Shown one piece after another: positions 8,398-23,095 of a stretch of DNA of 24,478 nucleotides. The notes below the pieces were generated by a model that was not told the origin of the DNA, did not search any database, and saw only the letters and a program-made list of their open reading frames with translations. This DNA is from a virus. Position 1 is the stretch's first letter; every line of letters starts with the position of its first letter. The stretch spans positions 1 to 24,478 of IMG/VR virus record IMGVR_UViG_3300025483_000072; one strand, given 5' to 3'. The position numbers were made by a program, and so were the translations under genes.

Positions 8398-11300
8398 TTA
8401 TCGACCGAAAGTTGATAGTGGTGATGGTGGTTTAGAACCACCTCCTGCTGACCCAGATGATGCGGACATTGGTGTGGGGATTGGCATAAACACTCTCTGG
8501 ATAACACCAATCTCAACAGGAGCTTTGGTAATACCAGGATGCATAATACTCTCTCTATTTATCCCTGATGACTGACCCATAACTCTTGCACCACGAGTCT
8601 CAGCAACTTTTACAAGACCACCAAGATTCTTACGTTCATAATCTTCAGGTTTATATTTCTTGCCCTGTGCCTCTGATGCTTTAACTCTTGCAGCAATAAT
8701 ATGCTCAGATGGAACCTCACCTGCGACACCACCAGTAGTAAATCGACCAAAGTTTACAATACCACCATGGTTCATTCTCTGCCTAACCATTTCACGAATC
8801 TTCTCTGGACCCGACCACATCTTGTCACCTTGCTTTAGTTTTGCGAGGTCCCACTTTCCACCCTGATCAGGCAGTTCTCCGTGAGTAGGTACAGTTTCTT
8901 TAGTGATGTCTGCTGCAGTCCACCCCCAAGTCTTTGCAAGATTTGCAACTGCCTGAGCAAGACTTTTTACCTGAACGTCTTTGACTGGATATTTACCGAA
9001 ATTATTTTCCGTTGCATTCAACATTGCTGAGATTGAGAAAGAAGCATTGCCAGTGTTGAAATCGGCCGTGTGATATGGTGGACTCTGACCAAATGATGAG
9101 TGTCCTGGGTGCTTATTGGGAACAACAGAACCATCACCTTTCACATAACGGTGATAACCTGCCCATCCAAAATTTGCCATGATAGATCTATCATCATCAT
9201 ATGAACCTGCAGTCCAGTGCAAGATGATTTTTTTATTCTTCTTCTTACCAGTCTTATCGTCACCTATACCTGCAATTGATGGTGAGGCAGTTTCTCCTTT
9301 TGCTTTCAAGAATGCCTGAACCATGCCTGTGTTCGCAGCAGTTCCATCTTCATTTGTGGTGTGTCTTAGACGACCACCAACTCCATTTATACCACCTTCA
9401 AAGAACTGTAGTCCCGAACCAGTGTTGGCTGCATGGAATTTTTGACCTTTGTCATCCTCAAAGAAAAACTTATCATTCTCTTTAATTCCATAGTTTCTGT
9501 TTGGATCAAGTGTGGGTGCACCTGTTGATCTGCTCAGAGACTCTTCATCACCTAAACCTAGCAGGTTTGTGAGTCCAGTTCTTTGTGCTACCTGCATTGG
9601 TAGACTGCCCAACCAAGTTTTTAGCAAACCACCCAAAAGAGTTTTTATTGGTGCTACAGTCGCACCAAAGAATTTTGCGAGATGATCCTTGATTTCATTC
9701 TTTGCTGAGACGACTGGTGCCATCATAGGTGTTTCACCTAAAGCAATAACACCTGAACCAAATGCTCTCTTTGCCTCAAATAGTTTTGGTCCGAACTCAT
9801 TCTTTAGAATCTCACCACCAGGCATTACCTCAAGTATAGCTTGCAGTGCACCAACTAGGTAGTTACCTGATCTCATTCTAGGATCATAGGCATCAAATCC
9901 AGGACCTCTACCAGTCTCAGCACCAGGCAACATGGCACCAAACTTCTTGATCTGATCCATGACTGGATCTAGACCTAAACCTTTAACTACTCTATTTTCA
10001 GTGTCCTTGATACCAGGAACCATATCACGGAGGAAGTTGTAGATGTCCATGCCCATGGATACTCCAGGACCGAACTGTCCTCCAGGAATTAAACCAACAA
10101 GGTCAAATGCACCAGATGCAAACTCTAGTAGTGCACCAATAGGATCACCTGCTTTCAGTGCTTCATAACCAAAATATAGGTTTGCAATACCACCTAAGAT
10201 TGGGATTGCTTTAGATCCAATCTTTTTCATCAGACCATTGCCACCCTTACCACCAAACTTTTGTAGAAGTTTAGCACCCTTGGGTCCTAGGACCTGCATC
10301 AATTTCTTTTCGATGGCACCCTTGAGACCTTTTAACTTGCCTAGCATAGGTTTGACATATTCTATAGCAGGTTCCACAACTTTTCGCATGGCAGCATCTT
10401 TGATGCCATTCAGACCTTTGCCGACAGTAACTAATCCTGTCTTAAATCCAGTACCAATTTTTCGGAGACCTGTTAATGCTTCACCACCAAGTTTCTTACC
10501 TTGATCTACTACTCTACCACCAAGTTTCTTACCTTGATCTACTACTCTACCACCAACTCTCTTGGCTTTTTGAAATTGCCTTTGAAAAAATCCAGGACCT
10601 TGCTTAGGTTTTGGTTTGGGTTTTGGTTTGGGTCTCCCTTGTGGATCCTGTTCTCTTGGTGGTTTAATACCAAGAATATCACTAACTAGATTCCAAATAA
10701 ATTTCAGTGATCCAATAGGATTCAATAGGAATGCAACTGAACCAATGGCAGGTAAACCTTTCAGCAGGTTACCAAAACCTGACATCAGTTCACCAACTTC
10801 ACCATTTTTAACACCGTTGATGATCTGACCGATACCACCAGCAGCAGAACCAATGCCGTCCAGTGCCCAAGTAGTCCAATTAATTACAAAACTACCAATA
10901 GGTTTCAGTACCAAATTATAAAAATTAGTAAATGCATCTACAAATCTTCTTGCATTACCTGGTTGTGAAAACCACTTGAATGCTGCTGACAGCACAAATA
11001 CTTTTAAGACAGATCCGACAATTCTTTGGAAGAATGATCCGATACCACTCAGGATACCTAGACCACCACCATCATCAACCTTTTTTTCTTTTACTAATTT
11101 TTTTCTTACTTCTGTTGCAGGTTTTCTTTTCTGTAAATTTCGTGATATTAGTTGTGGTCTAACTTTCTGACCATTTAATTTCTTAAGTGCTTCTCTTCTT
11201 CTCTCAAGGTCATTATAAAGTGATGTTTGTATCTTATGATCTACATTGCGTCTTCTTGTAAAAGAGTTTGCAATGGCACTTAATATTACATTATTTGCAG

Positions 11301-11418
11301 AAACTTGAGTGCCTATACCATTCAATGCCTTTATGGTAGGCGCAGTTTTGCCACCAACTTCTTGATATCGTTGAGGTTTTTGTGCTAATTTATTCTGTGG
11401 TTTAGCAAGTACGGCCAT
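8398..11418 (-). CDS. Tape-measure-like tail protein with N-acetylmuramoyl-L-alanine amidase domain
   Basis: The protein has 1006 aa. Its N-terminal 110 residues are basic and helical. About 115-255 has hydrophobic helices (VLKVFVLSAAFKWFSQPGNAR) alignable with the downstream paralogue. A Lys/Pro repeat and an 11-aa repeat (RVVDQGKKLGG) follow, then glycine-rich hydrophobic stretches. About 725-875 is an amidase_2/PGRP-like domain: IILHWTAG (His734), YHTADFNTG (His783), THGELPD (His846) and KWDL (Asp857). His734, His846 and Asp857 are placed as the zinc site would require. The end carries GGIVNFGRFTTGG, a tape-measure-like turn. The family cleaves the bond between muramic acid and L-alanine. 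I infer a tail-lumen protein that opens the wall during DNA entry. The start ATG abuts the upstream stop (TAAATG). Confidence 0.75.
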   Translation of the reverse strand: MAVLAKPQNKLAQKPQRYQEVGGKTAPTIKALNGIGTQVSANNVILSAIANSFTRRRNVDHKIQTSLYNDLERRREALKKLNGQKVRPQLISRNLQKRKPATEVRKKLVKEKKVDDGGGLGILSGIGSFFQRIVGSVLKVFVLSAAFKWFSQPGNARRFVDAFTNFYNLVLKPIGSFVINWTTWALDGIGSAAGGIGQIINGVKNGEVGELMSGFGNLLKGLPAIGSVAFLLNPIGSLKFIWNLVSDILGIKPPREQDPQGRPKPKPKPKPKQGPGFFQRQFQKAKRVGGRVVDQGKKLGGRVVDQGKKLGGEALTGLRKIGTGFKTGLVTVGKGLNGIKDAAMRKVVEPAIEYVKPMLGKLKGLKGAIEKKLMQVLGPKGAKLLQKFGGKGGNGLMKKIGSKAIPILGGIANLYFGYEALKAGDPIGALLEFASGAFDLVGLIPGGQFGPGVSMGMDIYNFLRDMVPGIKDTENRVVKGLGLDPVMDQIKKFGAMLPGAETGRGPGFDAYDPRMRSGNYLVGALQAILEVMPGGEILKNEFGPKLFEAKRAFGSGVIALGETPMMAPVVSAKNEIKDHLAKFFGATVAPIKTLLGGLLKTWLGSLPMQVAQRTGLTNLLGLGDEESLSRSTGAPTLDPNRNYGIKENDKFFFEDDKGQKFHAANTGSGLQFFEGGINGVGGRLRHTTNEDGTAANTGMVQAFLKAKGETASPSIAGIGDDKTGKKKNKKIILHWTAGSYDDDRSIMANFGWAGYHRYVKGDGSVVPNKHPGHSSFGQSPPYHTADFNTGNASFSISAMLNATENNFGKYPVKDVQVKSLAQAVANLAKTWGWTAADITKETVPTHGELPDQGGKWDLAKLKQGDKMWSGPEKIREMVRQRMNHGGIVNFGRFTTGGVAGEVPSEHIIAARVKASEAQGKKYKPEDYERKNLGGLVKVAETRGARVMGQSSGINRESIMHPGITKAPVEIGVIQRVFMPIPTPMSASSGSAGGGSKPPSPLSTFGR
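10483..10556 (-). repeat. Tandem repeat, 33-bp period, within a tail gene
   Basis: Two identical 33-base units (10483-10515, 10516-10548) plus 8 bases of a third encode RVVDQGKKLGG repeats in the linker of the amidase-bearing tail protein. A short Lys-Pro repeat lies nearby (about 10607-10632). In-frame unit changes here would alter protein length without breaking it. Confidence 0.85.
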
Positions 11419-11616
11419 TTAACCTTCGTATGGTGCTTGTTGGTTAGATTGTTGCATTTCACGTTCTGATTCAAGGTGTTGAGTCAACATGATCACATAC
11501 AAGTCCCTTTCCCAGGGCATCAGACTATCTATCTCGGTTAGACTCCATTTATGATGTTGTACTAAGGCAAAATTAGTTCGGTAATAATTTTCCAAACTAG
11601 AGTACAACATACTCAC
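11419..11616 (-). CDS. 51: gp51-like tail assembly chaperone ORF (probably made by -1 frameshift from gp26)
   Basis: The 65-aa ORF has a core WSLTEIDSLMPWERDLYVIMLTQHLESE (about 24-51), which resembles the 'L..MPWRER..Y...L' core of phage tail-assembly chaperones such as the lambda T region and T4 gp51-type proteins. It overlaps gp26 by four bases (GTGA). Its own first codon would be GTG, and the nearest Shine-Dalgarno-like sequence is 18 nt away, too far for normal initiation. The preceding T TTT TTC heptamer, read in the gp26 frame, would carry -1-shifted ribosomes straight into this frame and give a gp26-gp51 fusion of about 306 aa. Independent initiation at GTG or at the ATG two codons later remains possible. 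The chaperone role and the name are inferred from the motif and from position before the tape-measure-like genes. Confidence 0.65.
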   Translation of the reverse strand: MSMLYSSLENYYRTNFALVQHHKWSLTEIDSLMPWERDLYVIMLTQHLESEREMQQSNQQAPYEG

Positions 11617-11639
11617 CCGAAAAAAGACGACAAACCCTC
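11600..11639 (-). promoter_or_regulatory. Candidate programmed -1 ribosomal frameshift site
   Basis: On the minus strand, in order: GAGGG (11635-11639), 9 nt, the heptamer T TTT TTC (11619-11625) with TTT and TTC as in-frame gp26 codons, 4 nt, then a weak 5-bp hairpin GAGTA/TACTC (11600-11614). The gp26 stop is one codon after the heptamer. This is the dnaX-like layout: internal Shine-Dalgarno, slippery site, stem-loop. The parts are seen directly; that frameshifting happens is inference. Confidence 0.65.
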
Positions 11640-12338
11640 AAGAACTACTTCAGATGTAACACCAGTCTCTGGATTTTTGACTTCACTCTTCCACTGCAAC
11701 TTAGGCATAGTCTCGAAGAATGATTGTAGTTTAATGAATTGGTCATTAGTCAAACTTTCTAGGAATTCAGTTAACTCTTTCTTAGTACAGTCTTTTGCTT
11801 CCCACACCTCTTCTCCTTGGAAGATTTGTGAGATACAACCTGCTGCAATAGAGAATACCTGATTAATAGAATCAGACTCAGTTTGGGTTGTACCAGAGAT
11901 GTTTTCCTTAACAAAGGTGTCAAGACTAGGGTAAGACATGACAACACCAGTGTCATCATCAAGCATGATCTTTGGATCATGACCTTCAGGTTTCTCGCAA
12001 ACAACTTCCTCTAGAGGAACTTTGATTTTGATTTCAGTCTCACCATCATCAGGTGCAGTGATGATCACATCTGCTTCTTCACCTGCAGACTTCGCACGAA
12101 TACGAAGAAACAGAAACTCAATATCAAATGTTGGGAGAACATCAATCTTGCGTTTGATTGATGTACAGTTGCGGATGATAGTTTTCACCGCATTCATCAT
12201 GTCTTTCTCGTTATTAGATTCCATAGCCATCAAAAGAATCTTTTCTTCTTTGACTAGGAATGGACGATACTTTACTTTTTCTCCTGTAGAAGGCAATTCA
12301 CATTCGTACTCAGGTACGACAAGTTTTGGCAAAGGCAT
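11613..12338 (-). CDS. 26: gp26-like baseplate hub/tail assembly protein
   Basis: The 241-aa acidic protein begins MPLPKLVVPEYECELPSTGEKVKYRPFLVKEEKILLMAMES, the conserved opening of the T4 gp26/T4_baseplate family (T4 gp26 is 208 aa). It continues with FDIEFLFLRIRAKSAGEE and an acidic C-terminal helix region (QFIKLQSFFETMPKLQW) before ending EGLSSFFG. In T4 gp26 acts in hub assembly; in many long-tailed phages the equivalent position encodes the first part of a tail-assembly chaperone pair. The last codons form the slippery heptamer and the stop is overlapped by the 65-aa ORF. No strong ribosome site is visible; GGG lies about 10 nt before the ATG. The family identification is good; the chaperone interpretation is inference. 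Confidence 0.8.
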   Translation of the reverse strand: MPLPKLVVPEYECELPSTGEKVKYRPFLVKEEKILLMAMESNNEKDMMNAVKTIIRNCTSIKRKIDVLPTFDIEFLFLRIRAKSAGEEADVIITAPDDGETEIKIKVPLEEVVCEKPEGHDPKIMLDDDTGVVMSYPSLDTFVKENISGTTQTESDSINQVFSIAAGCISQIFQGEEVWEAKDCTKKELTEFLESLTNDQFIKLQSFFETMPKLQWKSEVKNPETGVTSEVVLEGLSSFFG

Positions 12339-22951: not shown

Positions 22952-22975
22952 CACGTTAGAATTTAAAGTGTATAA

Positions 22976-23060
22976 CGGAGAGAGTGAGATTTGAACTCAC
23001 GGATGCTTTCACATCGCTGGTTTTCAAGACCAGTGCCATAAACCACTCGACCACCTCTCC
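22976..23060 (-). tRNA. tRNA-Ser (anticodon UGA)
   Basis: The minus strand forms a class II tRNA: acceptor GGAGAGG/TCTCTCC, anticodon stem CTGGT/ACCAG with loop CTTGAAA (anticodon TGA), a long variable arm (GATGTGAAAGCATC) and T arm with GTTCAAATC. The discriminator is G, as usual for serine, and no CCA is encoded. It decodes UCA. Confidence 0.93.
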
Positions 23061-23095
23061 AACAGAATCTATTATAAGGGAAGTAGATTCTTTTG

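Follow-up and report, generated by a model that had tools for sequence, protein, structure and literature searches.

Frameshifting in the production of tail assembly chaperones (TACs) was reportedly described by Xu, Hendrix and Duda in 2004 for lambda (G/GT), HK97, P2 (E+E′) and other phages.

Frameshifting of the G-T type has been called widely conserved 'except T4' (PMC5009743), and the tape measure and tail tube role that this source gives for lambda G/GT is the one from which the role inferred below is taken. In the T4-like group, gp51 of cyanophages and of marine vibriophage was noted to be without the first ~200 residues of T4 gp51 (Sullivan et al. 2010, PMC3037559). Going by its title and by the papers that cite it, the work of Vladimirov, Gautam & Davidson (2022, Virology 566:9-15) identified the TAC genes of T4-like phages. 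The title argues for a mechanism other than frameshifting in these phages; PMC10885494 summarises the work as describing a short gene and a fused long gene in some of them, and PMC12846349 cites it as the source for poly-T slippery sites in the TAC-N genes of this group. A first-pass annotation of the DNA studied here had called a frameshift version in T4-like cyanophages undescribed, which these sources make doubtful. No paper describing a slippery site in cyanophages was found in our search of the open-access literature, and a prior description of the cyanophage-type site, at least in part, is likely.

Here we analysed a 24,478-base IMG/VR virus fragment (the window). Judged from sequence comparison, we put at about 95% the probability that its gp26 locus is a single TAC gene giving two products by -1 programmed frameshifting from gp26 into a gp51-like C-terminal part (gp51C). 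The window also carries a tRNA-Thr(TGT) gene at 72-143 and a tRNA-Ser(TGA) gene at 22975-23061.

The gp26 gene and its junction with the -1 frame

The gp26 gene, which would encode the short chaperone (TAC-N) of 241 aa as the 0-frame product, lies at 11613..12338 on the minus strand and matches PF12322 (E 2.3e-69) and phrog_150 (E 1.1e-73). Its last codons are GAG GGT TTG TCG TCT TTT TTC GGG TGA. They contain the slippery heptamer T TTT TTC (11619..11625, minus strand) in the phase X XXY YYZ, as tandem slippage needs, and a single sense codon (GGG) separates it from the stop TGA (11615-11613). The -1 frame is open from 5′ of the heptamer down to 11419, and the extension in this frame, a putative gp51-like TAC C-terminal domain, occupies 11419..11619 on the same strand. 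A frameshift would add 66 aa after Phe240 of gp26, with the predicted read-through FF-RVSMLYSSLENYYRTNFALVQHHKWSLTEIDSLMPWERDLY... and a fusion of 306 aa. For the 65-aa ORF of the -1 frame the match is phrog_634, annotated 'baseplate hub assembly catalyst' (E 9.5e-26), at profile positions 58-117 of 121. The locus has no complete gene for a gp51-type long form: the C-terminal part alone is present as an ORF, which lies in the -1 frame downstream of gp26.

In the window a GTG of the -1 frame overlaps the gp26 stop (GTGA) and an in-frame ATG follows 6 nt later, so that coupling may yield a certain amount of the small ORF's product on its own. The 20 nt before these start candidates hold no Shine-Dalgarno match. 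The first-pass annotation had named the heptamer, its phase and its position one codon before the stop, the uninterrupted -1 frame into a 65-aa ORF and the lack of a usable ribosome site for that ORF, and our reading of the locus agrees with all of these.

The next gene on the minus strand starts directly after the -1 ORF and is an ORF of 1006 aa (8398..11418) in a tape-measure-like position, and may be the tape measure gene. Residues 728-857 of this ORF form an N-acetylmuramoyl-L-alanine amidase domain (Amidase_2). In Caulobacter phage Cr30 an annotated tape measure is not the gene next to the chaperone locus but the one after it.

Conservation of the junction and rival explanations

A gp26 match was found in 852 records, and a Megablast search of the phage collection for near relatives found none. 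We collected 80 gp26 relatives from IMG/VR and 15 from phage records, 91 of which have a scorable junction of this type; the four others (L091-L094), of Ackermannviridae type and similar, have different sites and were left out of the count. The 91 relatives represent 81 distinct junctions and 29 clusters below 60% identity, with a median pairwise gp26 identity of 46%. The heptamer T-TTT-TT(C/T) is present in all 91 in constant phase, ending in TTC in 83 and in TTT in 8, and every one has a gp51-like -1 ORF that runs through the heptamer without a stop. The six T columns are invariant over the 81 distinct junctions, while neighbouring wobble positions are mostly conserved at ~0.5-0.6. In one set of relatives (L035-L064 types) the 0-frame tail continues for about eight codons past the heptamer before the stop, and the spacing from heptamer to -1 ORF is nevertheless unchanged. 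The aligned junctions indicate that heptamer, phase and frame relation are conserved far beyond chance. An alignment of this kind had been proposed in the first-pass annotation as a check on its idea that a -1 frameshift fuses gp26 to the small ORF in the manner of G/GT, and the comparison of 91 relatives strongly supports that idea: no relative has a broken heptamer or another phase (0/91 for each), and a plausible Shine-Dalgarno sequence of its own precedes the downstream ORF in at most 2 of the 81 junctions.

One could suppose that T-rich Phe codons simply fall together at a conserved FF end, with no recoding. Conservation of the FF pair at the protein level speaks for this, as does the prevalence of TTT among the Phe codons of these gp26 genes (77%, against 23% TTC). 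However, this would leave the wobble bases and the preceding T free to vary around a background of 63-77%, whereas they are invariant: the codon before the Phe pair (D, S, N or A) is GAT, AGT, AAT, TCT or GCT, T-ending without exception, compared to 63% T-ending among the D/N/S/A codons of these genes. Moreover, an internal conserved FF pair, which served as a control, reads TTTTTT(C/T) in only 1 of 74. Together with a -1 ORF that is conserved without a start, these comparative data refute coincidence, to which we assign practically no probability.

The -1 ORF could also be a separate gene, started at its GTG or ATG by the gp26 stop through translational coupling at the GTGA overlap. The two start candidates of the window fit this, as does the short stand-alone gp51 annotated in several records. 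On the other hand, 49 of the 81 distinct junctions lack any ATG, GTG or TTG in the -1 frame over 60 nt or more of conserved coding sequence, and in a Desulfovibrio phage (L087) the -1 ORF is entirely without a start codon. In the remaining 32 junctions a Shine-Dalgarno-like sequence is nearly always lacking: a tetramer of this kind occurs within 20 nt before the first start in 2 only, in one of them 13 nt away. The coding constraint in the start-less stretch was measured in 32 start-less, short-tail junctions over the 15 codons preceding any possible start. Differences per codon position in the -1 frame were 0.29/0.25/0.46, and the ratio of synonymous to nonsynonymous differences was 1921:2794 in this frame compared to 672:4494 and 758:4398 in the others. 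These patterns indicate that the start-less stretch is translated in the -1 frame; as this happens without a start codon, a frameshift from gp26 or an equivalent mechanism is needed. Separate initiation would also leave the conserved heptamer unexplained, and T4-type gp51 has a gp26-like part in the same chain. As a general explanation it is already contradicted by the start-less relatives and was rejected because most relatives have no start codon; we consider it very improbable. Slippage of RNA polymerase on the T6 run, by which a fraction of the mRNA with an inserted or deleted U would encode the fusion directly, appears just as improbable. It would make use of the conserved run of at least six T, but most relatives have only six, closed by C in 83 of 91, where longer runs would be favoured. 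It would also show no preference for the X XXY YYZ phase or for TTC, the rarer Phe codon (23%), which fills the second Phe position in more than 90% of the loci.

For ribosomal frameshifting, stimulatory elements are plausible. Both candidates of the first-pass annotation are present as described: a Shine-Dalgarno-like GAGGG (11635..11639, minus strand) ends 9 nt 5′ of the heptamer, and an inverted repeat GAGTA-TGTTG-TACTC (11600..11614, minus strand), which may form a hairpin acting as a weak stimulator, starts 4 nt 3′ of it. Neither the GAGGG nor the exact hairpin is conserved across relatives. Purine-rich GGA, AAGG, GAGG or AGGA is common 8-10 nt upstream, but it overlaps a conserved Gly codon. 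Hairpins occur at a similar place in many lineages with differing stems; they are not universal, and lineages L013 and L018 have almost none. When downstream folding energies of the 81 junctions were compared to synonymous shuffles, the mean z was -0.82, with 30 junctions below -1.5 and none above 1.5. The stem register pairing 7-12 with 26-31 (6 nt past the heptamer) is enriched in a lineage-specific manner, with at least five pairs in 22 junctions compared to 9 expected. A universal downstream hairpin was rejected, as RNAalifold found no structure shared by the anchored set.

In the proposed frameshift mechanism, the majority of ribosomes would end at the TGA (11613-11615) and produce gp26 (TAC-N, 241 aa). 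A minority would slip by -1 on the heptamer T TTT TTC, which allows both Phe-tRNAs to re-pair (UUU to UUU, UUC to UUU), and would continue in the -1 frame to 11419, resulting in the 306-aa gp26-gp51C fusion (TAC-NC). If the locus works like lambda G/GT, the tape measure protein would be coated by many copies of the short form and few of the long one, the C-terminal extension would recruit tail tube subunits, and both chaperone forms would then leave. The anatomy of the locus, its conservation, the coding constraint in the -1 frame, the homology of the fusion to T4-type gp51 and the resemblance of gp26 residues 1-87 to a solved chaperone were observed directly, and we infer from sequence and analogy that frameshifting takes place, at some rate, and serves assembly.

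Other gp26 relatives carry variant sites. Those of Ackermannviridae type (L091, L092 and L093, 3690-3900) have an open -1 ORF with an MPWH core directly after gp26, and an ORF of this kind directly follows the gp26 stop in Kuttervirus (L108-L121); it is unannotated in CBA120. The sites of this type read G ATT TTC, G CTT TTT or A CTT TTC, at which only the second (Phe) tRNA can re-pair. We take them to resemble the T7 gene 10 site, and Ackermannviridae-type phages may use a non-tandem frameshift. In Pseudoalteromonas phage XG4 (L094, 3730-3930), gp26 ends with T TTT TTA GTA TAA, a variant heptamer, and a gp51-like ORF lies in the -1 frame.

Relation to T4 gp26 and gp51

In T4, gene 26 is separate from gene 51, the two being transcribed divergently, and the 3′ end of gene 26 (GAG TTC TTT GAG TTA CTA TAA) is without a slippery heptamer. 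We compared the cyanophage proteins with T4-type profiles built from seven T4-type phages. Cyanophage gp26 matched T4-type gp26 with hhalign E values of 1.2e-21 and 2.8e-12 in two comparisons, and its profile also matched the N-terminal 200 residues of T4-type gp51 (E 5.6e-11). T4-type gp26 and T4-type gp51 matched each other (E 1.2e-19), the cyanophage C-terminal piece matched T4-type gp51 at its C-terminus (E 3.2e-10), and the in-silico fusion aligned with the T4-type gp51 profile over 242 columns, end to end across the junction (E 5.2e-21). A single T4 gp51 sequence gave no match to a smaller gp26 profile of 19 sequences; the match came with the 7-sequence gp51 profile. These comparisons indicate that T4-type gp51 is a gp26-like domain plus a C-terminal domain, the full-length N+C form. 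T4 gp51 would therefore be the counterpart of the frameshift product and T4 gp26 that of the unshifted product: T4 makes the short and long forms from two genes, while the cyanophages would make them from one locus plus a frameshift. T4 would thus do the same job via genes 26 (N) and 51 (N+C, in one ORF). The first-pass annotation had seen in the junction a link between two chaperone systems, a view that does not hold, since T4-type gp51 itself carries a gp26-like part and is no separate system. The frameshift would also explain the oddity noted in 2010, with gp26 supplying the ~200 N-terminal residues missing from cyanophage gp51.

The fold of gp26 was approached with an AlphaFold model built from 45 relatives (pLDDT 88.7), which was searched against PDB structures. 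VIA-align ranked 3fgx, 2ob9 (the HK97 tail assembly chaperone) and 3klu (YqbN) highest, with Z scores of 7.2-7.8 and the next match at 4.8; Z below 8 is the range where the tool warns of a common arrangement and is not conclusive alone. The aligned part comprises about 85 N-terminal residues (1-87). Foldseek alone placed 2ob9 fifth, with E about 1, and a PDB sequence search with the gp26 profile gave nothing convincing. We presume that 3klu and 3fgx are also prophage-type chaperone proteins, on which their PDB titles are silent. The presence of a known tail assembly chaperone among the three matches that stand clear of the rest fits the locus, and the model is consistent with a gp26 N-terminal domain of tail assembly chaperone fold.

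We incline slightly towards a reading in which -1 frameshifting is the solution that T4-like phages widely use (Kyanoviridae as well as Schizotequatrovirus, Ishigurovirus, Menderavirus, Cr30 and a Desulfovibrio phage), and in which T4 and its closest relatives would have abandoned it, duplicating gene 26 and fixing the frameshift product as a whole gene, 51. If true, one essential protein pair would show a traceable change from recoding to gene duplication. In Klebsiella phage phi1_146002 (L101, 1501-2794), full-length gp51-like and gp26-like genes lie in tandem on the same strand with a 14-bp overlap, an arrangement between the frameshift locus and the divergent genes of T4.

No joined gp26-gp51 gene was found among the annotated records examined, and public records variously cut the small ORF short, label it hypothetical or leave it out. 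Cyanophage gp51 annotations are 30-37 aa long or absent (L095 3789-3881, L082 4804-4917, L096 after 3711), probably because gene finders seek a start codon where the -1 frame truly begins, and there is none. Many marine phage genomes would need a corrected gp26 and gp51 annotation, and the T4 hub proteins gp26 and gp51 become comparable to the G/GT system.

Comparison with described chaperone systems

Like lambda G/GT, the locus combines a short chaperone with a -1 extension in overlapping ORFs, with the slippery site a few codons before the stop. The next gene is in a tape-measure-like position, and the gp26 model resembles the HK97 chaperone structure 2ob9. It differs from lambda in its slippery sequence and in the larger N-protein, gp26 (241 aa), with extra domains. 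The TAC genes of Vandenendeviridae and Andersonviridae share with it a poly-T stretch at the TAC-N end, an uninterrupted -1 frame and a second ORF that is usually misannotated (PMC12846349); however, these are other phage families with the motif GTTTTT, whereas the site here is the canonical tandem-slip T TTT TTC. To T4 itself the locus is related through both forms: gp26 is a homologue of T4 gp26, and the predicted fusion is homologous to T4-type gp51 over its full length. In T4, however, the two genes are separate and divergent, gene 26 has no heptamer and the long form is a complete gene of its own.
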